From Halovivax cerinus (GTDB lineage: Archaea; Halobacteriota; Halobacteria; Halobacteriales; Natrialbaceae), in assembly GCF_024498195.1 (NCBI RefSeq), contig NZ_CP101824.1:1426001-1490000 (forward strand): a DNA stretch of 64,000 nucleotides, written 5' to 3'. The notes below the pieces were generated by a model that saw only the letters and a program-made list of their open reading frames with translations, made no database searches and had not been told where the DNA came from. Within the stretch, counting starts at the first letter, position 1. Each line of letters begins with the position of its first letter. Below are positions 7,723 through 57,954 of the stretch, piece after piece. A program made the position numbers and the translations under genes.

Positions 7723-8757
7723 TTAACTAAAAAAAGCACACACTTCGGCGGCTCGATCTTCCCAGGTGTTACGTTTGGCAGTTTCAATGGAATTTTTGGA
7801 AATCGTGTTAACTTTACCCAAATCATGCATCAGTGACATGACTCCCTCGGCCAACTCAACTGGATCGTCTCTACAAATGACTCCACAGCCGTTATTCTCG
7901 ACAAATCTTGCGATCGTCTTACATTTAGTTGAGACGACCGGTAGCCCAAAAGACATATATTCGAACAATTTTACCGGCATGGCCATATTGTTGTAATATG
8001 TGTCTCTAAAAGGTATGATACCTATATCACTTTTATTATATATTGGTTCTAGCCCTTCGCCCGACTCATGATAAACGTAAATTGGGAGACTTTCGATGGC
8101 GTTACTTGTTTTGTCATTTAATCTTTCATATTCTCCTTCCCTACAGACCAGGTGCAGAACAATATCATTATTTTCTAACTCCCTCATCATACCAACTAGG
8201 TTATGTATCCCATATCTCTCCGAAATACCACCAACGTATATTATATCGCTCACTTCCTCTCGTTCTATTGGATTCTGTTTATTACAGCCAGGCCATAATA
8301 CGTCTCGAGTCGCAGCTTTTAACGACAGCTCTAATGAATATTCACTCGGAAAATAGACTATATCGGCTAGTTTTGTGTATAGGTCGACTTCAGCAAAATG
8401 TGCCGCTCTAAATACGTATTTCTTAACTCCATCCTTAGAGAAATGGTCTGCGAATTTCCAATATGTGTCTCGATAAAAAACTGCTAGGGGTACGTCGTGT
8501 TTCCGAATCTTGTAGAGAAATGGATAATCATACAATGGATGAATCGGGGAGGAGGGAGGTTCTGAATAGCAAAAATCATATTTGTCCCATTCCATACTCT
8601 CTCCAAATACTTTTCTTAACCTATTCTTGCCCCTTCCTTGAATTATGTCAACATCGTGGCCTAGCCCCTTCAACGATCGAAACATCTCATAGGGTCTCTT
8701 TCCTGACCCCTTCTTGACGTTAAACGATTCACGGGGAGAATGATACAATATTTTCAT
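7723..8757 (-). CDS. Glycosyltransferase family 4 protein
   Basis: A 344-residue GT-B protein. The N-terminus MKILYHSPRESFN is followed by a Lys/Gly-rich acceptor loop (GSGKRPYEMF). The second lobe carries IIYVGGISERYGI and the donor-site stretch PVKLFEYMSFGLPVVST, where the conserved Glu contacts the nucleotide sugar in GT4 enzymes. It is a predicted cytoplasmic glycosyltransferase. The gene and its flanks are AT-rich with many A/T-ending codons, as in the other AT-rich glycosyltransferase at 4.7-5.6 kb. It stands alone on the minus strand with an AT-rich 5' flank, consistent with its own promoter. Confidence 0.87.
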   Translation of the reverse strand: MKILYHSPRESFNVKKGSGKRPYEMFRSLKGLGHDVDIIQGRGKNRLRKVFGESMEWDKYDFCYSEPPSSPIHPLYDYPFLYKIRKHDVPLAVFYRDTYWKFADHFSKDGVKKYVFRAAHFAEVDLYTKLADIVYFPSEYSLELSLKAATRDVLWPGCNKQNPIEREEVSDIIYVGGISERYGIHNLVGMMRELENNDIVLHLVCREGEYERLNDKTSNAIESLPIYVYHESGEGLEPIYNKSDIGIIPFRDTYYNNMAMPVKLFEYMSFGLPVVSTKCKTIARFVENNGCGVICRDDPVELAEGVMSLMHDLGKVNTISKNSIETAKRNTWEDRAAEVCAFFS

Positions 8758-19612: not shown

Positions 19613-20177
19613 GTCGAAGACTGATCAGACGAAAGTCTTCGAGTGAGAACTATAACCTCGTCGGTACGTGGTTCAACGCTTCAAAGCTTAGAGATGGACG
19701 CTCAATGGGAGCCCTGGTTAGAACACTCCTGTCATCCAATATATTTTAGATGAAGTGGCCAAGCCGAATGGTGGTTGCCAAATAATGACCGTGTATATTT
19801 AAAGACCTCCCCGCAGACTCTTTATTGGAAGTGCTTGCAACGTATGGAAAGTCGAAGACTTTTCGAATGGTCGTTACACGATGGTCTTGGCAAGTCGAAG
19901 CGATCGAAACCGGTCTTACCGACCAGTGCCCGATTGACCGGGCAGCCTTAACACATATATCGTCTATGGGGGTTTGACCTGGTAGTAGTATCTCGTTTTG
20001 AACCCACTGAATCCGCTCGTTTACAAATAATAGAACCGACACTCCGGTGATCGAACGAACCTGTACCGACCTGCCGAACGATCTGGATTAGACAAACGAT
20101 ATCTGCCCGCTCACCTAATTCTTATCCTAAAACAAATCACCAGTAGATATAATACACTGCCCTTCGTTGACACGCGT
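19613..20177. other. Intergenic region, no gene supported
   Basis: About 560 bp between the exporter and the first structured leader. It contains AT-rich patches (for example tatatttaaag near 19795 and acatatatcg near 19955) that could be promoter elements, and short open frames without recognisable content on either strand. Confidence 0.4.
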
Positions 20178-20282
20178 GGAAGCCACGCTCACCGGTTCGC
20201 CGGCTGGGTAGAATTGCCCCGGGTGCTTGGGACACCCGGAGCGTGGCTTCCGATCCCCAGGACAGGGGATTCTACGAAAGCC
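20178..20282 (+). promoter_or_regulatory. Structured leader of the A1-B1 zinc-ribbon genes
   Basis: Directly upstream of the A1 start, the + strand can fold into an outer 12-bp perfect stem (20178-20189 with 20240-20251) enclosing two hairpins: CCGG-TTCG-CCGG at 20192-20203, and a 7-bp stem CCGGGTG/CACCCGG (20219-20225 with 20233-20239). A third 6-bp hairpin (20253-20258 with 20265-20270) lies just before the GAAAGCC-ATG start. The same order of elements precedes gene A' at 57.3 kb with a different primary sequence in the outer stem, so base-pairing is maintained. A cis-acting RNA or an end of a mobile element are the two main readings. Confidence 0.6.
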
Positions 20283-20630
20283 ATGAATCACTACACACCC
20301 AACACGGATAAACGCCACGCACAGCCCGCCTACCGCCTGCGTACGCCCACTGACCAGTCTAGCACCCCACTACACCTCCGGACCGATCTTCTCCCACGTG
20401 TCGCCTGCGCGGACGACGACGATGCGGAGTATCTCGTCCTCGATCCCGCGCCGCCATCAAAGTACTCGGCCAAACCGGGCCACCGTCCGGTCGACTATCC
20501 GCCGTGTCCCCACTGCGGCGAGCCGGTGATCACGGTCTGGATGTTCGGCCCGGACATGCACACCGCGGATCCCTGCCAGTGCGCGCTGACCCGCGAGGAA
20601 GTCGTGGCCCTCGGCGGTGATGAGCTGTGA
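20283..20630 (+). CDS. Small zinc-ribbon protein A1 (CPxCG type)
   Basis: A 115-residue protein. The N-terminal 70 residues are low-complexity. The C-terminal domain has PPCPHCGEPV, then DPCQCAL 17 residues later, a CxxC...CxC zinc-ribbon pattern, and ends in REEVVALGGDEL. Haloarchaea are known to encode many small CPxCG-related zinc-finger proteins of mostly unknown function. The ATG at 20283 directly follows the structured leader, while an upstream GTG or ATG would cut into it. Its stop overlaps the GTG of gene B1 as GTGA. The second copy at 26.8 kb is about 90 percent alike by eye but lacks a start codon. The function is unknown. Confidence 0.7.
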   Translation: MNHYTPNTDKRHAQPAYRLRTPTDQSSTPLHLRTDLLPRVACADDDDAEYLVLDPAPPSKYSAKPGHRPVDYPPCPHCGEPVITVWMFGPDMHTADPCQCALTREEVVALGGDEL

Positions 20631-20901
20631 GGGGAGACGAACCGGAGCCCGTCGAGACGCCCGACGCTCCAGACAACCCGACCCGGAGCACGGACCCGAT
20701 CGCGTCGACACGCCCGACCCAGTCGATACGCCCGATTCCGTCGACGCCCCAGACACACCGGACCCGACGAACTCGCCCTTCCCGCTGTGTCCGCGCTGTG
20801 ATCGCCCGGTCACCCGCTACACCTCCACGGGCCCACACACCCACGTCGCGAGTCCCTGTGGCTGCCGGCTCTCGCTCGCCGAGGTCCAGGGGATGCGGTA
20901 G
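20617..20901 (+). CDS. Small zinc-ribbon protein B1, frameshifted relative to copy B2
   Basis: The C-terminal domain FPLCPRCDRPVTRYTSTG...SPCGCRLSLAEVQGMR is homologous to the zinc ribbon of A1 and almost identical to B2 at 27.1-27.4 kb. In B2 the natural start is a GTG overlapping the A stop (GTGA). Here the equivalent GTG (20627) opens the expected MRGDEPEPVETPDAP but in another frame, so about one base is missing or two are extra near 20690. The C-terminal frame can instead start at ATG 20617. Either the protein has a replaced N-terminus or the gene is decaying. Confidence 0.55.
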   Translation: MMSCEGRRTGARRDARRSRQPDPEHGPDRVDTPDPVDTPDSVDAPDTPDPTNSPFPLCPRCDRPVTRYTSTGPHTHVASPCGCRLSLAEVQGMR

Positions 20902-20991
20902 CGACCCAACCGTCCACTGAACGAGACACTTCCCTCCACTCTCGATCCGATCCCCGTCGAACCGTCCACCCCCGATCACCGTCGTGCGAGC
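20820..20991 (+). repeat. Cassette-junction repeat, copy 1 (end of B1 plus tail)
   Basis: The last 80 bp of gene B1 followed by a non-coding tail ending in gtcgtgcgagc. This is the first of nine related junction sequences between 20.8 and 34.5 kb, all on the same strand. The most conserved parts are the stop-codon region ggatgcggtagcgacc and the distal tail with gatcaccgtcgtgcgagc. Confidence 0.75.
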
Positions 20992-21027
20992 GGTGTGTCA
21001 CATCGATTCCCCGCTCTCAGCATCCAG

Positions 21028-21468
21028 TCACGGCGGATTGGAGCGGCTGTTCAACCGGGACGGATCGCCGGCGTCGTAGGCCGCTCGCCACAGCGCGTGG
21101 ACGGCCCGTGCGACCAGCGATACCTCTGTCACTTCGATACAGGAGGGTTCGGCGATCGAACCGTCCGGCGGATGGAAGTGAATTTCGGGCGAGTGTGCGT
21201 TCGGGTGGCGGTCGAATCGCCAGTTGACGTCCCGGTTATCGACGTAGTGAAACGAGTACATGTCGAGTTCGCTCCACTGCACGTCGAGGCGGGCCGCGTC
21301 GGCGCGTCCGATCCCGTCGGTGAGGTGAATCTCGAGTTCGGTCGGCGCGATCTGATCGTCGAAGGCCGTCGAGTCGACCAGCGGTTCGAGATCGATCCAG
21401 AGCGTTCGAACGCGCTGGAGGGCGGGCAGGTAGATCGGGCCGAACGCCCCGGTTCGGTCGTCGCTCAT
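21028..21468 (-). CDS. TumE-like toxin family protein
   Basis: A 146-residue protein with the pattern YSFHYVDNRDVNWRFDRHPN followed by HFHPPDG, resembling the TumE (DUF6516-type) toxin family. Four such proteins occur in this window. Its ATG overlaps the stop of the upstream DUF7342-type HTH gene as ATGA on the minus strand, the usual arrangement of a two-gene toxin-antitoxin operon with the antitoxin first. The biochemical activity of TumE relatives is not established from this sequence. A longer frame exists upstream but the overlap fixes the start at 21468. Confidence 0.62.
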   Translation of the reverse strand: MSDDRTGAFGPIYLPALQRVRTLWIDLEPLVDSTAFDDQIAPTELEIHLTDGIGRADAARLDVQWSELDMYSFHYVDNRDVNWRFDRHPNAHSPEIHFHPPDGSIAEPSCIEVTEVSLVARAVHALWRAAYDAGDPSRLNSRSNPP

Positions 21469-21980
21469 GCGGTGAGCTGGTGACTGGCTTCGTCGTACGC
21501 GAGGGCCGCCTGGGCGACCGCGAGGTTCGTCCGCGTCGTCTTCCACGCGCTTATGTCGTCCCATCCCTCAGTCTCGTCGGCGTCGAGTTTCCGTGCGAGC
21601 GCTTCGGGGGTCACGACGTCGTAGCGATCCTGGTAGCGACGAATGTCCCGCTTCATCCGTTCGATGCCGTCGAGAATGTCGTCCCGGGTGGTTTCCTCCC
21701 GGAGCTCGCGGATGCGGGCGTCGAGTACGCGGTCGCTGTTTCGTTTGTACAGCGTCGTCCGGCCGTCTGCGTCGGCCTCGGCGAAACCGGTGGTGACGAG
21801 AGTCTTGCAGTGTCGTCGGGCCGTCGGCTCGCTGACGAGCGCTCGCTCGGCGATGCGGGCCGCCGATTGCCCGTCGTGGGTCCCCTCGACGATCGCGTAC
21901 ACTCGTTCGAACGGGGACGTCTCCGCCTTCCACTCCGCTTTCACGTGCTCGTTGACGTCGTCCCACCTGCTGGTGGTCAT
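21465..21980 (-). CDS. DUF7342-type winged-helix protein, predicted antitoxin
   Basis: A 171-residue protein. A winged HTH spans roughly residues 25-75 (ERVYAIVEGTHDGQSAARIAERALVSEPTARRHCKTL), followed by a helical region with RELREETTRDDILDGIERMK and YDVVTPEALARKL. Haloarchaeal proteins of this type (annotated DUF7342) commonly precede TumE-like genes. The start ATG at 21980 gives MTTSRWDDVNEHVK. An AT-rich segment (ataaatagtttctctgaaa) just upstream at 22003-22022 fits a promoter. It probably represses its own operon and neutralises the downstream protein. Confidence 0.7.
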   Translation of the reverse strand: MTTSRWDDVNEHVKAEWKAETSPFERVYAIVEGTHDGQSAARIAERALVSEPTARRHCKTLVTTGFAEADADGRTTLYKRNSDRVLDARIRELREETTRDDILDGIERMKRDIRRYQDRYDVVTPEALARKLDADETEGWDDISAWKTTRTNLAVAQAALAYDEASHQLTA

Positions 21981-22065
21981 AGCGTCGTCTACGCACTCGG
22001 TGAATAAATAGTTTCTCTGAAAAACTATACTTTTCCGGGGTGGTGTCGGTCCCGAATAGCACTCT

Positions 22066-22560
22066 CCAGGCGATGCGGTAGTGACCGAGCGACCCCTCAG
22101 ATAGCACTCACCACCGCCCACGTTCGATCGAGTTCGCCTCGAACTGTCCACCCTCGATCGCCGTCGTGCGAGCCACCACGATCGTCCCGCCGACGCCGTC
22201 CCGTGATCGACGCTCGCGGCCGTCCGACGAATCGGCGGCGTCCCACCGGTGTGTCGCCACTGACGATCGCGTCGGCGAGTCGGCTGTCGCGTCGAGTATC
22301 CGAAACCGATAGTTTCGGGTGGCGCCACGACGCGGCCGTCGATCGCGTCAGTCCGCACCCGGGTGATCGAATCGAACGCGACTCACTCGGTCGCGAGTTC
22401 GTCGTAGATCTCCGCGTGTTCGTCCAGGTCGTGCCGGCCGAGGAACCGGATGCGGTAGCGCCGCGTCCTCGGGGGAGAGATCGTCGGGAATCTGTTGCTG
22501 GTCGCGCTCTGCTGCCATACTCACTCCTCGCTACGGGCGTCACGATCACAATCGTTCGGT
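22066..22560 (+). repeat. Junction repeat copy 2 within a 0.5-kb duplicated block
   Basis: The block starts with the very end of gene B (ccaggcgatgcggtagtgacc) and its tail (to about 22173), then continues for about 370 bp that is nearly identical to 32.74-33.11 kb. Differences are scattered single bases plus a few-base insertion near 32815. The duplicate ends inside the 3' part of the minus-strand gene 22521-22808, whose last codons (ending RDARSEE) are also carried over to the second copy. Confidence 0.75.
22383..22518 (-). pseudogene. Mini-gene remnant, frameshifted, copy 1
   Basis: From ATG 22518 the frame reads MAAERDQQQIPDDLSPEDAA. The continuation RYRIRFLGRHDLDEHAEIYDELATE ending at a TGA lies one frame over. 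The interval is 136 bases, one more than 45 codons, so a single extra base separates the halves. It starts 3 bp after the stop of the upstream gene, as in a two-gene operon. The same 136-base interval with the same frameshift is found in the second copy. An antitoxin-sized product is possible but unproven. Confidence 0.4.
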
Positions 22561-22808
22561 TCGTCGTCCGTCGTCTCGTGTGGTCGAGGACCGGACTGTC
22601 GATCCGACCCGTCGATGCGTGACAGCCAGAGATCGATCGTCGCTTCGTACTCAGGTGCCAGCGGTGCGGTATGTGTTCGGAAGTACGCGGTCACCGAATC
22701 GGCCTCGACGCCCGTTTCGTCCGTCGCGAGCGCTTTCAGTATGTCCTTCACCGTCCGGTCGTAGTCGAAGGAGTACCCGTTCATGGCGTAGAAGATTCGA
22801 ACGGACAT
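22521..22808 (-). CDS. Small protein of unknown function in a TA-like operon
   Basis: A 95-residue frame with a compact N-terminal part (MSVRIFYAMNGYSFDYDRTVKDILKAL...) and a hydrophilic acidic tail ending RDARSEE. I do not recognise the family. The frame extends upstream to 22895 through low-complexity residues, so the start is uncertain. It is followed by the frameshifted mini-gene, and its 3' end coincides with the boundary of the 0.5-kb duplication. It could be a truncated toxin. Confidence 0.4.
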   Translation of the reverse strand: MSVRIFYAMNGYSFDYDRTVKDILKALATDETGVEADSVTAYFRTHTAPLAPEYEATIDLWLSRIDGSDRQSGPRPHETTDDEPNDCDRDARSEE

Positions 22809-23000
22809 ACGGAGGCTGTTGTGATCGCGTTGCACGGTCGCCCGTGTCTGCGTACGGACTCGAGGAACTGTACTCGCGGGCGGGTGTTCGCTCACCGATT
22901 TGACGGTCGCTGCCCGATAGTGCGGGCCGCCGCGTTCCTGTGCGTGAACCGAGCGACTCCGCTGTCAGTTCGGGTCGGGAACGATAGCGGTCGAATACCG

Positions 23001-23450
23001 TCACCCGTTCCCGGTATCGTCGGGGACGACGGTGAACCCGAGGGTGTGGAAGTCGTCCGGGTCGAAGGTAAATACGTGTTCGATCTCGAAGTGGCGGGCG
23101 ATCGCACCGCCGAGGTGATCGAAGAACGCGATCTCCTGGTCGTCGTACCGAACGAACCACTCGTGGGCCGCGTCGAACGTCGTCTCGTCGACTGGGAGGA
23201 CGTTGATCGTCTCGGAGGACCGGATCTCTTCCAGCGTCGAGACGGCGTCTCGGTGGCTCGTCTGATAGAGGATCACCGTCGCGAGCTCGGCGAGTACGTA
23301 TCGACTCGTGAATACCGGAGCGTACTGGTCGCCGGCCCGTATGGCATCGAGGACTGCCGCTGCACGCGCGTGATTCACGTCGTCTTCGACGTACGCGGCG
23401 TAGAAGCCGCTCGTGTCGACGAACAGCGGGTCGGCTGCCCCCGCGGTCAT
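23001..23450 (-). CDS. vapC: PIN-domain ribonuclease toxin (VapC-like)
   Basis: A 149-residue PIN-domain protein. The acidic metal site is visible as FVDTSGFYAAY (Asp at residue 12), LAEL with the conserved Glu near residue 55, and FFDHLGGAIARHF with a third Asp, followed by VFTFDPDDF. PIN toxins cleave RNA using Mg or Mn ions. Its start overlaps the stop of the upstream HTH gene by 4 bp on the minus strand, so the pair forms an antitoxin-toxin operon. The length is typical for VapC (125-150 residues). Confidence 0.85.
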   Translation of the reverse strand: MTAGAADPLFVDTSGFYAAYVEDDVNHARAAAVLDAIRAGDQYAPVFTSRYVLAELATVILYQTSHRDAVSTLEEIRSSETINVLPVDETTFDAAHEWFVRYDDQEIAFFDHLGGAIARHFEIEHVFTFDPDDFHTLGFTVVPDDTGNG

Positions 23451-23821
23451 GTGGAACTTTCCGCGGAGTCACCGTAGAGGATCTCGTCGATGTGTTCGGA
23501 CGCGTCCGCTGGCTCTCCGGCTTCGAAGGTGCGCCGGTCGAATATCGGATCCGACGCGTTCACACCGTGTGTTCCGGGAGCGTGCGGACGGTCGTCGACA
23601 CGCCACCACACGACGGCGCGACCGCCCACCTTCGCCTTCTCGACCTCGCCGTCGTCGGCCAGTTGTTGCAACCGTCGGTAGGCCTGGGACCGGTCGAGAT
23701 CGAAGCGGTCGGCGATCGACTGCGCCGTCTGGAACGGGCGGTCGGCATGCGTGAAATGCGCGAGGAGGGACTCGTCCGTCACGGACGGCGTGTACTTTCC
23801 GTGTTCGTTGCGGTTACTCAT
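23447..23821 (-). CDS. HTH antitoxin partner of the PIN toxin
   Basis: A 124-residue protein with a winged-helix segment in residues 15-75 (TDESLLAHFTHADRPFQTAQSIADRF, then RSQAYRRLQQLADDGEVEKAKVG). The C-terminal 45 residues are acidic and probably wrap the toxin. The start ATG at 23821 follows an adenine-rich stretch (tagtgtaacactttttccgg on the coding strand) that could hold a promoter. It is a non-classical VapB, since it uses a wHTH rather than an RHH or AbrB fold. Autoregulation of the operon is expected by analogy. Confidence 0.72.
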   Translation of the reverse strand: MSNRNEHGKYTPSVTDESLLAHFTHADRPFQTAQSIADRFDLDRSQAYRRLQQLADDGEVEKAKVGGRAVVWWRVDDRPHAPGTHGVNASDPIFDRRTFEAGEPADASEHIDEILYGDSAESST

Positions 23822-24252
23822 GCCAGACCCTTCGTAGTGCACCGGAAAAAGTGTTACACTACGAAGTGAGCCGATGGGGCCGCAGCGCGAACCATCGTTG
23901 CGATCGCCGGACCAGCCTGCTAGGGGCTGAATTCGTGGTAGCGCCTCCGAACTGCCCGCCGTGTCGACCGACGCTCGAAACCGCGACGAGAATTCGGGAT
24001 GTCCGTAGCGTTTCTGTCGGCGATGCACCGGTTCGTCGTGCGGAACGACCCTTCGGTACCGTCTACGGTCCCTCGCACAGCCACCCGCAACGTAGCGGTC
24101 GAACGCTGCATCACTCGTGGTTCCCGTTTCACTATCCGAGCGTCCCAGCTGAGACCGACGGACTGAGGGGGTTCCCCTCGGATCCCTGCGGCTGTGACCG
24201 TCCCGAGTACCGGGTCGAGCACCTCGTGAGGCAGGAGTGCTCGCGGCCGAAG
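23822..24252. other. Gene-poor spacer
   Basis: About 430 bp with only unconvincing overlapping frames. The first 40 bp probably contain the promoter for the minus-strand HTH/PIN pair. The rest shows no recognisable coding content or repeats apart from running into the junction sequence that follows. Confidence 0.4.
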
Positions 24253-24463
24253 ACCCGACGAACTCTCTCCCCGCTGTGACCGCCCGGTGACGAGCAACAC
24301 TCCGACGGGCCCGCACACGCACGTCGCGAGTCCCTGCGGCTGCCGACTCTCGCTCGCCGAGGTCCGGGGGATGCGGTAGCGACCGACAGATCCACGAACG
24401 AACTCGCCAACGCTCACGCTCGATCCCCGTCGAACCAGCCACTCCCGATCGCCGTCGTGCGAG
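24253..24463 (+). repeat. Junction repeat copy 3: decayed B gene end plus tail
   Basis: The match to gene B starts at acccgacgaactc. The first zinc knuckle is lost because the stretch encoding CPRC is shortened to ctgtgaccg, but the second half SPCGCRLSLAEV and the stop region ggatgcggtagcgacc remain. The tail (24380-24463) is nearly identical to that of copy 5. This is the longest of the decayed B fragments and shows that the fragments derive from a full gene. Confidence 0.75.
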
Positions 24464-24553
24464 CGCGTGTTCGCTACCGTCGATACACGGTGAGACGTCG
24501 CAGGGGACGCACGGTGAGATACACCTTTGTGGCGCCGCGCTAGAGTGACAGGT

Positions 24554-24982
24554 ATGCACGAGTCCGGATTCGACGAGGAGACCATCGAGACGTTGTCGAG
24601 GGTCCTCGGCGAGCACGGCGTGTCGTTCGCGATGGTGTTCGGATCGGGCGCCCGGGGGACGATGGACGAGGGGAGCGATCTGGACGTCGCGATCGAGTTC
24701 GAAACGGTTCGACCGACCGACGAGGGGTACAGCGAGCGGTACCTGCGACTGCGGGGAGCGCTCGACGAGGCGCTCTCGACCCCGGTCGACGTGGTCGACG
24801 TCCACGCGATGGAACCGCGGTTCGCCCGCGTCGCGTTCGACGAGGGCTGCCTGGTTCGCGGCACCGAATCGCGGAAGACCGAGTTGGCGGAGCGCTACGC
24901 CGGCGAGGCGCTGTCGGTGACGGACGCCCGCGAGCGCGTCCGCGCGGCGGTGGAACGACTGCAGGACGTGACGGTCGGATGA
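24554..24982 (+). CDS. mntA: MNT-type nucleotidyltransferase antitoxin
   Basis: A 142-residue minimal nucleotidyltransferase. The signature FAMVFGSGARGTMDEGSDLDVAIEF carries the GSxxRG...SDxD metal-binding pattern, and a third Asp lies in PVDVVDVHAM. MntA antitoxins of the HEPN-MNT systems AMPylate and inactivate the HEPN partner. The stop overlaps the ATG of the HEPN gene (ATGA), so the two are translationally coupled. The start was chosen at ATG 24554. An earlier GTG at 24527 adds only nine Arg-rich residues. Confidence 0.85.
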   Translation: MHESGFDEETIETLSRVLGEHGVSFAMVFGSGARGTMDEGSDLDVAIEFETVRPTDEGYSERYLRLRGALDEALSTPVDVVDVHAMEPRFARVAFDEGCLVRGTESRKTELAERYAGEALSVTDARERVRAAVERLQDVTVG

Positions 24983-25443
24983 GCGACGACGAGGGACTGT
25001 CGGCGGAGCGAGCGACGCGTATCGCCGATGCAATCGAAGCCATCGAGCAGAACGTGTCCGGCCTCGAGCGATACCGCGATCTCTCGCGATCGGAGTACCG
25101 GTCGGACGAGTCCACAGAGCGGCGCGAAGCCGTCGAACGGAAGTTCGAAAAGCTGATCGCTGCGACCGTCGACATCGCCGAGACGATCATCGCAGCCGAC
25201 GGCGCGTCCGTACCCGGCCGTCGAAAGGACGCTATCACGGGGCTCGAACGGCGCGGCGTCATCGACGAAGCCCTCGCACGACGGTTGCGCGAGGCGGTCG
25301 GGTTCCGGGACGTCCTGGCGCACACGTACGGCCCGGTGATCAACGACGATATCGTCTACGACGCGTTACAGGAGAGCCTCGGTCGGTACGTTGCGTTCGC
25401 CGAGGCGATCGATGCGTATCTCGACGACGCGCTCGATGACTGA
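24979..25443 (+). CDS. hepT: HEPN-domain ribonuclease toxin (HepT-like)
   Basis: A 154-residue helical protein with the HEPN catalytic motif RDVLAHTYG (R-x4-H) near residue 110, preceded by IAATVDIAETIIAADG, typical of the HepT family. HEPN toxins act as RNases, and in MNT-HEPN pairs the adjacent Tyr in HxY is the site modified by the antitoxin. Tyr is present here (HTY). It is the second gene of a + strand operon directly after MntA. A second, unrelated-by-position copy of this pair lies at 60.0-60.9 kb. Confidence 0.85.
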   Translation: MSDDEGLSAERATRIADAIEAIEQNVSGLERYRDLSRSEYRSDESTERREAVERKFEKLIAATVDIAETIIAADGASVPGRRKDAITGLERRGVIDEALARRLREAVGFRDVLAHTYGPVINDDIVYDALQESLGRYVAFAEAIDAYLDDALDD

Positions 25444-25706
25444 ACCGGGGCTCCATCGCTCGATACCAGTAGTCCGGACCACTGATCCGCTCGCTCGAAC
25501 AACAGCACTGCGTTCGCTCGATGACCCCTTCGGTGGCGACCCGACATCGAACGGGTTTCGACGGCGAGGACGAACTCGACCGACTCACATCTCTCCGGAA
25601 CCGCCCGGCCGAAGTGACCCTTCGATGACGGTGCGGCGTGACTCCCTCGTCGGTTCCACAACGCTGAATCCCGCGTCGGTGTTGTTGCTTCGACCCCGTC
25701 TTTTAG

Positions 25707-25838
25707 TCGTCGGTCCTGCGGCTGCCGACTCACGCTCGCGGCGGTCCAGGGGATGCGGTAGCGACCGAGCGATCCCTCAGATAGAATCCGCACCACCCTC
25801 GATCGTCACACCCGATCGACCACCTCCCTGTCGAGCGC
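25707..25838 (+). repeat. Junction repeat copy 4 (short, diverged)
   Basis: The match begins at cctgcggctgccgactcacg and runs through the B stop region ggatgcggtagcgaccgag. The tail beyond 25780 is diverged and lacks the gtcgtgcgagc end. The flanking spacer (25444-25706 and 25839-25894) carries no gene. The promoter of the AbrB/PIN operon should lie at its right end, where ggttatgtatgttcg occurs near 25854. Confidence 0.65.
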
Positions 25839-25894
25839 ACAGCAGCCGCGAAATGGTTATGTATGTTCGAACCGCAGTATGAATACGAGAAAGT

Positions 25895-26203
25895 ATGAGT
25901 AAATCTGAGTCTGAGAAAGTGGTCTCTGTATCATCCCGCGGGCAGGCCACGATCCCGAAAGAGTTCCGCGAAGAGTTGGAGATCGAGACGCCCGGGCGGG
26001 TGAAGTTCGTCAGGACGGACGAGGGCGAAATCGTCGTTCGTCCTATCCACTCGGTTACGGATCTGCGTGGGGTTCTGTCCGGAAAGACCGACGAGCGGGG
26101 TCGTTCGGCCGTGGAGCGCTTGCGGGAGGAACGCGCTTCTGACAGAGCGAGCGAGGAAGCGTTGCGCCAGCGGTACGCCGATGATGAGGAGTCCGACGCA
26201 TGA
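25895..26203 (+). CDS. vapB: AbrB/MazE-family antitoxin (VapB-like)
   Basis: A 102-residue protein. The N-terminal swapped-hairpin DNA-binding domain is clear: VVSVSSRGQATIPKEFREELEIETPGRVKFV. The C-terminal part (SVTDLRGVLSGKTDERGR and following) is the usual toxin-wrapping tail. AbrB-type VapB proteins bind their own operator and the PIN toxin. The stop overlaps the start of the toxin gene (ATGA). Confidence 0.87.
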   Translation: MSKSESEKVVSVSSRGQATIPKEFREELEIETPGRVKFVRTDEGEIVVRPIHSVTDLRGVLSGKTDERGRSAVERLREERASDRASEEALRQRYADDEESDA

Positions 26204-26628
26204 CGATCGGGTCAGAGATCCCCGAGACGATCGTGTTCGACACCGAACCGCTGATCGCCTATTTTTGCGACGAACCGGGAAGTGATACCGTCGAGCGGTA
26301 CGTAGAGGCGGTCGAAGGTGCGGCGAACGGCTACATTTCGGCGATCAATCTCGCCGAGGTCCACTACGTCGTTCGTGCGATCGACGGTGAAGAGCGGGCG
26401 GACGCTGTCGTCGATGTGTTAGAAGAGAGCGGGATCCGCCGCGTCGACACCGACGCAACGTGGCCGGTAGCGGCTGATTTCACGTTTCGCTACGCGCCGG
26501 CGCTCGGCGACGCGTTCGCTCTCGGGACTGCGGCACACCTAGATGGGACGCTCCTGGTCGGTGCCGATGATGACTACGACGACGTCACCGACGTTCCGAT
26601 CACGCGTTTTCGAACCGAACCGGCGTAG
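26200..26628 (+). CDS. vapC: PIN-domain toxin (VapC-like)
   Basis: A 142-residue PIN protein with IVFDTEPLIAYF (first Asp), INLAEVHYVV (Glu) and LGDAFALGTAAHL (third Asp), then LLVGADDDYDD. Predicted Mg-dependent ribonuclease. It is coupled to the AbrB antitoxin by a 4-bp overlap. Directly downstream lies the second copy of the A-B zinc-ribbon module. Confidence 0.87.
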   Translation: MTIGSEIPETIVFDTEPLIAYFCDEPGSDTVERYVEAVEGAANGYISAINLAEVHYVVRAIDGEERADAVVDVLEESGIRRVDTDATWPVAADFTFRYAPALGDAFALGTAAHLDGTLLVGADDDYDDVTDVPITRFRTEPA

Positions 26629-26705
26629 AGAGCACCTCGGCGAGGGCGAGGACGGCGTCCCGCCAGAAGCCCGCGAGCCGTGACTCCTCGGCGGCGGTTC
26701 GCTGG

Positions 26706-26783
26706 CTGTGAAGCAACCCCTCCGGGTGTGACGAGTACCCGGAGTGTGGCGTCCGATCCCGTAAGAGGATGCGACTGAAAGCC
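26706..26783 (+). promoter_or_regulatory. Decayed structured leader before A2
   Basis: Corresponds to the leader at 20.18-20.28 kb. The CCGGGT/ACCCGG inner stem (26722-26727 with 26737-26742) and the GAAAGCC just before the start position survive. The 12-bp outer stem is lost, and the last hairpin is reduced to atccc...ggat. The decay coincides with the loss of the A2 start codon. Confidence 0.5.
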
Positions 26784-27132
26784 ACGATCCGCGTATAGAG
26801 TCACCACGGATACACGCCACGCACAGCCGGCCTACCGCTCACAAACGGATGCTCACGAGTCTAGCACCCCACTACACCTCCGGACCGATCTTCTCCCGCG
26901 CGTCGCCTGCGCGGACGACGACGATGCGGAGTATCTCGTCCTCGATCCAGCGCCGCCATCGACGTACGCGGCCAAACCGGGCCACCGCCCGATCGACTAT
27001 CCGCCGTGTCCCCACTGCGGCGAGCCGGTGATCACGGTCTGGATGTTCGGCCCGGACATGCACACCGCGGATCCCTGCCAGTGCGCGCTGACCCGTGAGG
27101 AAGTCGTGCGCCTCGGAGTTGATGAGCTGTGA
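26784..27132 (+). pseudogene. Zinc-ribbon gene A2, start codon lost
   Basis: From RHAQPAYRSQTDAHESS onward the copy is nearly the same as A1, including PPCPHCGEPV and DPCQCAL. At the position of the A1 ATG there is ACG (26784), and a frame change follows within the next 12 bases. No in-frame ATG or GTG occurs before the zinc ribbon itself. The 3' end still overlaps the GTG of B2 as GTGA. It is probably untranslated unless a non-standard start is used. Confidence 0.65.
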
Positions 27133-27377
27133 GGAGAGACGAGCCCGATCCCGTCGACGCCCCCGACCCGGAGAACGCGCCCGACCCCGTCGACGCCCCG
27201 GACGCGCCCGACCCCGTCGACGCCCCGGACGCGCCCGACCCCGCGGACGCTCCCTTCCCGCTGTGTCCGCACTGCGACCGCCCGGTCACCCGCTACACCT
27301 CCACGGGCCCGCACACGCACGTCGCGAGTCCATGCGGCTGTCGACTCACGCTCGCCGAGGTCCAGGGGATGCGGTAG
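27129..27377 (+). CDS. Small zinc-ribbon protein B2 (CPxC type)
   Basis: An 82-residue protein starting at GTG 27129. The first half is a run of Asp-Pro-rich hexads (DPVDAPDAP-like units encoded by imperfect 18-27 bp direct repeats). The second half is the zinc ribbon PLCPHCDRPV...SPCGCRLTLAEVQGMR. It has the same fold pattern as A1, so A and B look like tandem paralogues. This is the intact version of B in the island, and its 3' end recurs as the junction sequence. The function is unknown. Confidence 0.65.
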   Translation: MRRDEPDPVDAPDPENAPDPVDAPDAPDPVDAPDAPDPADAPFPLCPHCDRPVTRYTSTGPHTHVASPCGCRLTLAEVQGMR

Positions 27378-27464
27378 CGACCGACAGATCCACGAACGAA
27401 CTCGCCATCGCTCACGCTCGATCCCCGTCGAACCAGCCACCCTCGATCGCCGTCGTGCGAGCGC
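27300..27464 (+). repeat. Junction repeat copy 5 (end of B2 plus tail)
   Basis: The last 78 bp of B2 with the stop region ggatgcggtagcgacc and the 87-bp tail ending in gatcgccgtcgtgcgagc. The tail differs from copy 3 by only a few bases. Confidence 0.75.
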
Positions 27465-57302: not shown

Positions 57303-57406
57303 TTGGAAGCACCCGTCTCTCTCCGTCGTCAGGGGCAGCGCCGAGAATGCCCCGGGTGAGGTAGCACCCGAGACGATGCTTCCAACCCATAGATGGGAGT
57401 GAAAGC
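57303..57406 (+). promoter_or_regulatory. Structured leader of the A'-B' genes
   Basis: Folds like the leader at 20.18 kb. The outer stem TTGGAAGC/GCTTCCAA (57303-57310 with 57378-57385) is extended after a small bulge by CGTCTC/GAGACG (57314-57319 with 57370-57375). The inner stem is CGGGTG/CACCCG (57353-57358 with 57365-57370), and a final hairpin CCCAT-AG-ATGGG (57386-57397) lies just before GAAAGC-ATG. The inner-stem and start-proximal sequences are conserved, and the lower stem differs but still pairs. Confidence 0.6.
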
Positions 57407-57688
57407 ATGACCGACTACAGTACACACCACCATAAGCATCCCGACAGCGAAACGCTCGACTCGGGCCATCTCGGCCCGTTTTTCGACAGAATTAGCGCCG
57501 AGTCCGAACCGGCGAACCCGGCGACCGACCCGGCAACGCGTCCGGGGCCACCGTCGTCACGGACGCCCCGTCCGGCGCCACGGACGCCTCGAACGGGGCC
57601 GACCATCCGTCCAGGACCGACCGACCACTCCGACGACCAGGATCCCGATCCGCCGGGAGCGGCCGCCCTGGCCGAGGTGGCGGTGTGA
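57407..57688 (+). CDS. Gene A', small Pro-rich protein in A-B module position
   Basis: A 93-residue frame whose ATG directly follows the structured leader. The N-terminus MTDYSTHHHKHPDSETLDSGHLGPFF is His- and Asp-rich. The rest is Pro/Thr/Arg-rich low complexity ending ALAEVAV. Unlike A1 it has no Cys residues, so the zinc ribbon is absent. Its stop overlaps the GTG of B' (GTGTGA), as A overlaps B in the other module. The function is unknown, and coding capacity in the second half may be fortuitous. Confidence 0.5.
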   Translation: MTDYSTHHHKHPDSETLDSGHLGPFFDRISAESEPANPATDPATRPGPPSSRTPRPAPRTPRTGPTIRPGPTDHSDDQDPDPPGAAALAEVAV

Positions 57689-57954
57689 CGCCCGCGGGCG
57701 GTGCGAACGGATCCGACGTGGGCGAACCTGACGCTGTTGAATCCGACGACGCCGACGCGAACGCGACCGAATCAGACGACGGCGACGACGTCCCGGCGTG
57801 GAAGGCGTACGGCTACCCCCGAAAACCCGAGTGGGCGCCCGACTGCCCGCGGTGTGGCGGCCCCATCCTCGGGGTGACGGTCGCCGGCCCGGGCGTCAGT
57901 CAGGTCACACCGTGTGGCTGTCGCGTCCCGCCCTCGGTGATCGAGATCCTGTAG
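57685..57954 (+). CDS. Small zinc-ribbon protein B' (CPxCG type)
   Basis: An 89-residue protein from GTG 57685. It has an acidic N-terminal half (VESDDADANATESDDGDD), then PEWAPDCPRCGGPILGVTVAGPGVSQVTPCGCRVPPSVIEIL with the CxxC...CxC ribbon. It is a diverged counterpart of B1 and B2. Its 3' end recurs at 59.85-59.93 and 61.00-61.07 kb as junction sequence. The function is unknown. Confidence 0.65.
   Translation: MTPAGGANGSDVGEPDAVESDDADANATESDDGDDVPAWKAYGYPRKPEWAPDCPRCGGPILGVTVAGPGVSQVTPCGCRVPPSVIEIL

Follow-up and report, generated by a model that had tools for sequence, protein, structure and literature searches.

What is the structured element that stands before small zinc-ribbon genes in the chromosome of Halovivax cerinus, and what does it do? 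The window analysed here, a stretch of 64,000 nucleotides (NZ_CP101824.1, positions 1,426,001 to 1,490,000, forward strand), holds such an element at 20.18 kb, a second at 57.30 kb and a degenerate one at 26.7 kb, each followed by a pair of small genes, A and B. The first-pass annotation, made from the sequence alone, had considered a cis-regulator, a guide-like RNA and the end of a transposon.

Anatomy of the leaders

The elements of the 20.18 kb leader are as follows.

20141..20155, + strand: promoter CAGTAGATATAATAC (TATA box) upstream of P1, from sequence; ungapped conserved spacing to P1 in 198 copies
20178..20189, + strand: P1 5' strand GGAAGCCACGCT, from sequence and folding; P1 pairs are 95.9% paired in 52 diverse members
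20192..20203, + strand: variable hairpin CCGG-TTCG-CCGG within P1, from sequence and folding; differs among copies
20206..20219, + strand: P2 hairpin GGGTAGAATTGCCC, from folding; family consensus GGGCA-GAAA-TGCCC, one pair with 18 double changes
20219..20239, + strand: P3 hairpin CCGGGTG-cttggga-CACCCGG (arms 20219-20225/20233-20239); 99% paired, 4 pairs with double changes in 52 members
20240..20251, + strand: P1 3' strand AGCGTGGCTTCC; its CGTGGCTT (20242-20249) complements the P1 5' strand and also AAGCCATG at 20278-20285
20252..20271, + strand: P4 hairpin GATCCCC/GGGGATT (arms 20252-20258/20265-20271), which caps the alternative hairpin
20278..20285, + strand: start region AAGCCATG, competitor for the P1 3' strand and co-varying with it; start codon at 20283

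The perfect 12-bp stem originally described is present, with 20178-20189 pairing with 20240-20251, as are the CCGG-TTCG-CCGG and CCGGGTG/CACCCGG hairpins inside it, the third hairpin GATCCCC/GGGGATT and, after it, GAAAGCCATG leading into the start codon. The hairpins named are thus real, but the inventory left the GGG..CCC hairpin (20206-20219) unnamed. The predicted energy of the whole leader is -59.6 kcal/mol (z -3.85), and none of 200 shuffled sequences folded as well. The second leader is built in the same manner.

57305..57319, + strand: P1 5' strand GGAAGCACCCGTCTC, from sequence; leader scores 66.7 bits, E 3e-15, with the family model
57332..57353, + strand: P2, GGGGCA..TGCCCC, from sequence and folding
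57353..57370, + strand: P3, CGGGTG..CACCCG, from sequence and folding
57370..57383, + strand: P1 3' strand GAGACGATGCTTCC; its ATGCTT complements AAGCAT at the start codon, compensatory relative to the 20.2 kb copy
57386..57397, + strand: P4, CCCA..TGGG, from folding
26681..26786, + strand: decayed leader copy, P1 lost, start codon ACG at 26784; 17.6 bits, E 0.047

At 57.3 kb the order of hairpins is kept and the lower-stem bases differ while still pairing (z -2.87), just as had been noted. The view that the 26.7 kb version is decayed also holds, as seen from its low score, the absence of P1 and the ACG in place of a start codon; this copy is not clearly better folded than its shuffles (z -1.26). 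Directly upstream of this third module, at 25895-26628 of the window, lies a pair of genes for a MazE-type antitoxin and a PIN-domain toxin.

In the family as a whole, P1 (9-14 bp) encloses a variable stretch, P2 (of the type GGGGCAU...GAAAUGCCCC) and P3 (of the type CGGGUG...CACCCG); P4 and then the start codon follow. A putative CGC..GCG pseudoknot around P2 is visible in many Natrialbaceae copies. A further pairing of 6-7 bp, between GAGACG of the junction and GUCUC in the reading frame, displayed no compensatory change on inspection and is not claimed.

Counted from the first G of P1, the TATA box occupies positions -30 to -27 in an ungapped alignment of 198 Natrialbaceae copies. With this fixed spacing, the transcript should therefore begin within a few nucleotides of P1, and archaeal promoter geometry places the probable start at or just before it.

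Size and distribution of the family

The leaders at 20178 and 57305 are members of one RNA family. A DNA search with the 20.2 kb leader found 17 dispersed matches in the same chromosome, each followed by a short reading frame and then usually a zinc-finger ORF. A covariance model built from 18 copies of this genome detected 32 copies at E < 2e-7 in its 3.9 Mb, and 24-29 copies in each of four other Halovivax genomes. The exact core pattern occurred in 105 stretches among 84,980 bacterial and archaeal species genomes scanned, all of them in Natrialbaceae. With a broader covariance model the RNA was found in 120 of 391 sampled Halobacteria genomes, covering 50 of 86 genera, and all 12 positive genomes of a phylum sample came from the same order. 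Neither the exact-core scan nor the phylum sample yielded a member outside Halobacteria. Rfam 15 contains no matching family, even at E <= 5 with permissive filters, and no description was found in the literature searched, which did not extend to subscription papers. The family is therefore large and apparently undescribed so far. The proposed run of a covariance model across haloarchaea has thus revealed a widespread family with significant covariation. The first-pass annotation was right about a structured leader before zinc-ribbon genes, but missed the roughly 30 genome copies and the other protein families downstream.

One copy lies on a contig classed as viral (IMGVR_UViG_3300026986_000020, 8514-8604, locus L083). 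Additionally, two tandem leaders (L039 and L042) stand 1.1 kb apart at 2.400-2.401 Mb of the H. cerinus genome, each followed by a nearly identical frame of 76 aa with no visible zinc site.

Covariation of the fold

A first alignment of 18 copies (MAFFT with RNAalifold) gave almost no covariation owing to the close similarity of the copies and a misaligned middle, so a diverse set was needed. Among 52 diverse members, double changes occur in 16 of 20 pairs, amounting to 79 cells versus 21.2+-3.5 after shuffling (0/500 as many), and the covariation score is 0.283 versus 0.110 for shuffled and 0.064 or less for slid controls; the alignment was fitted to the structure of the model, which favours covariation somewhat, and the shuffles and slides control for this in part. 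The paired fraction is 96% in P1 and 99% in P3, and 66% in P2, which is less well aligned. The same verdict was obtained in 98 distinct rows, nearly all Natrialbaceae. As judged from these alignments, the covariation of the RNA family is decisive. Abundant covarying pairs in a larger alignment are the opposite of what had been named as grounds for abandoning a functional cis-acting RNA before zinc-ribbon genes, and this proposal stands.

An alternative pairing that covers the start codon

The 3' strand of P1 has two complements, the 5' strand of P1 and the bases up to and into the AUG. In most copies the 3' strand is CGUGGCUUCC and its complement in the start region AAGCCAUG. Together with P4 as a cap, the second pairing forms one long hairpin in which the start codon is buried. 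This mutually exclusive pairing was not part of the original description of the hairpins. Variants keep both pairings, as seen in GGCUUCC/GAAGCC-AUG, GGUUUCC/AACC-AUG and, by compensatory changes, the GGCAUCC/GAUGCCA-AUG of the viral contig. The 57.3 kb copy of the window (AUGCUUCC with AAAGC-AUG) keeps both, and so do variants from outside Natrialbaceae (GGUCUUCC/GAAGACC-AUG and GGGUUCC/GAACCC-AUG).

The P1 3' strands were swapped among members and the score of the duplex between this strand and the start region was compared. The score was 15.65 versus 14.84+-0.12 swapped in Natrialbaceae, where part of the signal may stem from the relatedness of copies, and 14.6 versus 11.6+-0.31 in a mixed set. 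Among 63 members outside Natrialbaceae, with 27 different P1 3' strands, it was 16.0 versus 12.07+-0.37, and none of 1000 swaps scored as high. The direct-repeat version of the test, which sets the P1 5' strand against the start region, is weaker (4.63 versus 4.16+-0.11), since mismatches are tolerated in the 5' strand; the comparison based on the 3' strand is the appropriate one.

In the folding model, removal of the P1 5' strand reduces the predicted openness of the AUG from a median of 0.44 to 0.02, compared with 0.40 when the start region is shuffled. The drop exceeds 0.3 in 41% of copies and is small in more than half. On average, loss of the 5' strand costs about 6.6 kcal/mol, for 1 M NaCl and 37 C and ignoring the molar KCl of the cell, an amount that a ligand or protein could offset if the model holds.

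Conserved start of the reading frame

In Natrialbaceae copies the nucleotide sequence is conserved over the first 18 codons, even at third positions, and this conservation stops near codon 18; about 190 copies display this strong conservation over the first ~54 nt. Fixed codons include K10 (AAA in 190/194), L12 (CTC in 128/128) and R8 (AGA in 111/127). Part of it is accounted for by a hairpin, P5, at nucleotides 20-25/32-37 of the frame, with the loop AUAAAC. Its pair 22:35 is A-U in 55, G-C in 28 and C-G in 3 of 105 non-redundant copies, and is paired in 90 versus 68.5 shuffled (maximum 78). Both copies of the window are without a good P5. The conserved element thus comprises the leader, as first described, and also this block inside the reading frame, which had been missed.

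Genes behind the leader

The genes that follow the three leaders in the window are listed below.

20283..20630, + strand: gene A, 115 aa, C-terminal zinc ribbon CPHCGEP..PCQC; no Pfam or NCBIfam family above cut-off
20620..20901, + strand: gene B, zinc ribbon CPRCDRP..PCGC, overlapping the end of A
26784..27378, + strand: A-B module after the decayed leader, A without a start codon
57407..57688, + strand: ORF A of the second module, 93 aa, conserved N-terminus, no zinc ribbon
57685..57954, + strand: ORF B of the second module, zinc ribbon CPRCGGP..PCGC; its start overlaps the stop of A

Two assignments of gene A were rejected, Lar restriction alleviation protein (PF14354, 13 bits against a cut-off of 28.6) and dihydropyrimidinase (a weak PDB match at chance level). 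In Natrialbaceae the leader is followed by a short frame, usually of 28-80 codons, with a start resembling M(I/F)xYxLPGxKRLARxxYR. This frame overlaps by ATGA, or is fused to, a small zinc-binding protein with CPxCGxP...GP...PCGC ribbons or CYRC...YCCEHC, and no Pfam or NCBIfam family fits these downstream frames. Of 192 copies whose downstream sequence was long enough for a strict search, 153 showed a zinc-type cysteine pattern. Among the 39 that did not, several have zinc ORFs of a form outside the strict pattern (e.g. CYRC...YCCEHC) or are decayed, and some (in Halopiger, and five copies of the H. cerinus genome) have no visible zinc site. Outside Natrialbaceae the downstream frames include SWIM zinc fingers in Haladaptatus, small CxxC ORFs, one TFIIB-repeat protein, a 101-aa family and other uncharacterised proteins. 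It can be seen that the downstream products are mostly small zinc-binding proteins, plus one TFIIB-repeat protein and uncharacterised ones.

On Haladaptatus plasmids (e.g. NZ_CP085302.1 and NZ_CP085339.1) the same SWIM zinc-finger family occurs at up to 25 places per plasmid, and in the genomes of that group that were read it is preceded by the RNA. No relatives of the SWIM or 101-aa proteins were found in phages. B-type zinc ribbons also recur close together without a leader of their own, in the window (20283-27380) and at 759-765 kb of a relative (G004), which suggests local duplication of the B unit.

Several class-2 copies lie beside a gene with an eCIS core domain and a variable C-terminus (PF13699, E 1.6e-32 for the gene at L013). 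This gene is the divergent ORF upstream of the leader at L013 (H. cerinus genome, ~2.85 Mb) and L022 (~1.24 Mb), and related sequence lies near L016, L017 and L228. At L013 a small candidate immunity-type gene follows the eCIS-core gene; these loci resemble archaeal eCIS-cargo or polymorphic-toxin loci.

Proposed mechanism and alternative explanations

From the alignments and the folding model, the element is probably a cis-acting, riboswitch-like leader that turns translation on and off at the 5' end of the mRNA. Several features of a riboswitch are found. Its location appears to be the 5' UTR, with the TATA box 27-30 nt before P1 and the AUG at the end in 198 copies. There is a conserved structured domain suited to sensing, with covariation in 16/20 pairs (0/500 shuffles). 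The predicted expression platform is mutually exclusive with the closing stem, and both pairings are kept by compensatory change. Transcription would start at or just before P1, as the fixed TATA spacing implies, and P1 would close a three-way element with P2 and P3, the putative sensor, whose structure is supported by covariation. When P1 is formed, the AUG would lie in an open stretch after P4 and the gene could be translated. When it is not, the 3' strand of P1 would pair up to and into the AUG and, with P4, make one long hairpin; this pairing is likewise supported by covariation, and we infer that it would hide the start codon from translation. Which of the two forms would depend on an influence that either stabilises P1/P2/P3 or opens it; a small ligand or ion is the likeliest candidate and a trans-acting factor common to the units the next, with the product of the gene itself less likely. 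In each of up to ~30 units per genome that share this control, the gene so switched would be a short ORF that is either coupled to a small zinc-binding protein or fused with it.

Regulation by the gene's own product, in which the small zinc protein or the short leader peptide would bind its own P2/P3 and repress or activate translation, is unlikely. Zinc ribbons and SWIM domains can bind nucleic acids, ribosomal proteins regulate translation by binding their own leaders, and here too there is one leader per small protein gene, with a tight association of RNA and gene in 200 Natrialbaceae copies. However, a leader of this kind would be expected before the same protein family at every copy, whereas this core precedes unrelated folds (zinc ribbons, SWIM, TFIIB-repeat, the 101-aa family and others) that are unlikely to share an RNA target, and ~30 paralogues would regulate one another. 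Unrelated small zinc proteins behind one RNA core therefore fit a shared signal better than autoregulation. We think it rather improbable that the leader is a general expression element, a stabiliser of the mRNA or an enhancer of initiation that responds to no signal and whose second pairing merely tunes the level of translation. The fixed promoter spacing agrees with it, as does the nucleotide-level conservation of the start-proximal coding region, which is usual in initiation elements, but two mutually exclusive pairings kept through many changes would be costly for a mere stabiliser, and the P2/P3 core is strongly conserved.

The mobility of the units bears on the remaining explanation, that the hairpins are the end or the RNA part of an IS200/IS605-like transposon or of a selfish RNA-protein module. 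The ~30 dispersed copies are in keeping with it, and so are the many places of the SWIM genes on Haladaptatus plasmids and the rarity of two-sided synteny with more distant Halovivax, seen for no more than a handful of the 33 H. cerinus copies. Between two close Halovivax species (95% identity), most copies do share their position. Therefore, the units are inherited vertically in the short term and turned over across longer times. An IS200/IS605 element has tnpA and/or tnpB between two hairpin ends; here a single structured element always stands at a gene start, beginning at a promoter and ending at the start codon, and no transposase or tnpB and no second matching end were found in the neighbourhoods annotated or scanned. 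Searches for synteny and empty sites gave no precise insertion boundaries; around the 20.2 kb copy, relatives have rearranged flanks and none showed a clean empty site. A mobile element is thus highly improbable, and the transposon end entertained earlier is not supported. Nor is the guide-like RNA, the leader being promoter-driven, with a start codon retained in position in 195-196 of 200 Natrialbaceae copies and no tnpA/tnpB in the neighbourhoods read.

Comparison with known systems

The proposed leader resembles translational riboswitches in being a 5' leader with a conserved multi-helix sensor, the 3' strand of whose closing stem is shared with a helix that masks initiation. Unlike them, it masks the AUG itself rather than a Shine-Dalgarno sequence, matches nothing in Rfam 15 and occurs in tens of copies per genome before small zinc proteins. 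Leaders of ribosomal protein genes also precede one gene for a small protein of nucleic-acid-binding type, whereas here one RNA is common to unrelated protein families, with dozens of copies per genome. Omega/reRNA and IS200/IS605 ends share with it a structured RNA beside a zinc-finger-containing gene and dispersed copies; in contrast, this RNA is placed 5' of the gene, runs in line with it and has its own TATA box, without tnpA/tnpB or a second end.

According to a 2021 paper, the fluoride riboswitch is the sole natural archaeal riboswitch determined experimentally (PMC8241225). The synthetic theophylline switch E masks the AUG and works in Haloferax volcanii (PMC8241225). As in the proposed mechanism, its AUG lies in a helix without ligand and is freed by folding of the aptamer, indicating that such a mechanism is workable in molar salt (PMC8241225). 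Unlike the leader family, this switch is artificial, also masks the Shine-Dalgarno sequence and has an unrelated aptamer.

It is possible, if somewhat short of probable, that the family is a natural riboswitch class specific to Halobacteria, acting by direct strand exchange at the AUG and placing tens of zinc-finger genes under one signal, perhaps a metal ion or another small ligand. In differential RNA-seq of Haloferax volcanii, 72% of transcripts were leaderless and translational control by structured leaders was called untypical (PMC4983044). A widespread, strongly covarying two-state leader with about 30 copies in one chromosome contradicts this picture of mostly leaderless haloarchaea in which such control is untypical. 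The family would also be a ready set of natural switches that have to work in molar salt. Moreover, as a single signal may govern them all, the leaders open a way to study the many small zinc proteins of haloarchaea that are uncharacterised. If the ligand were a metal, these small zinc-finger proteins would be linked to metal homeostasis.
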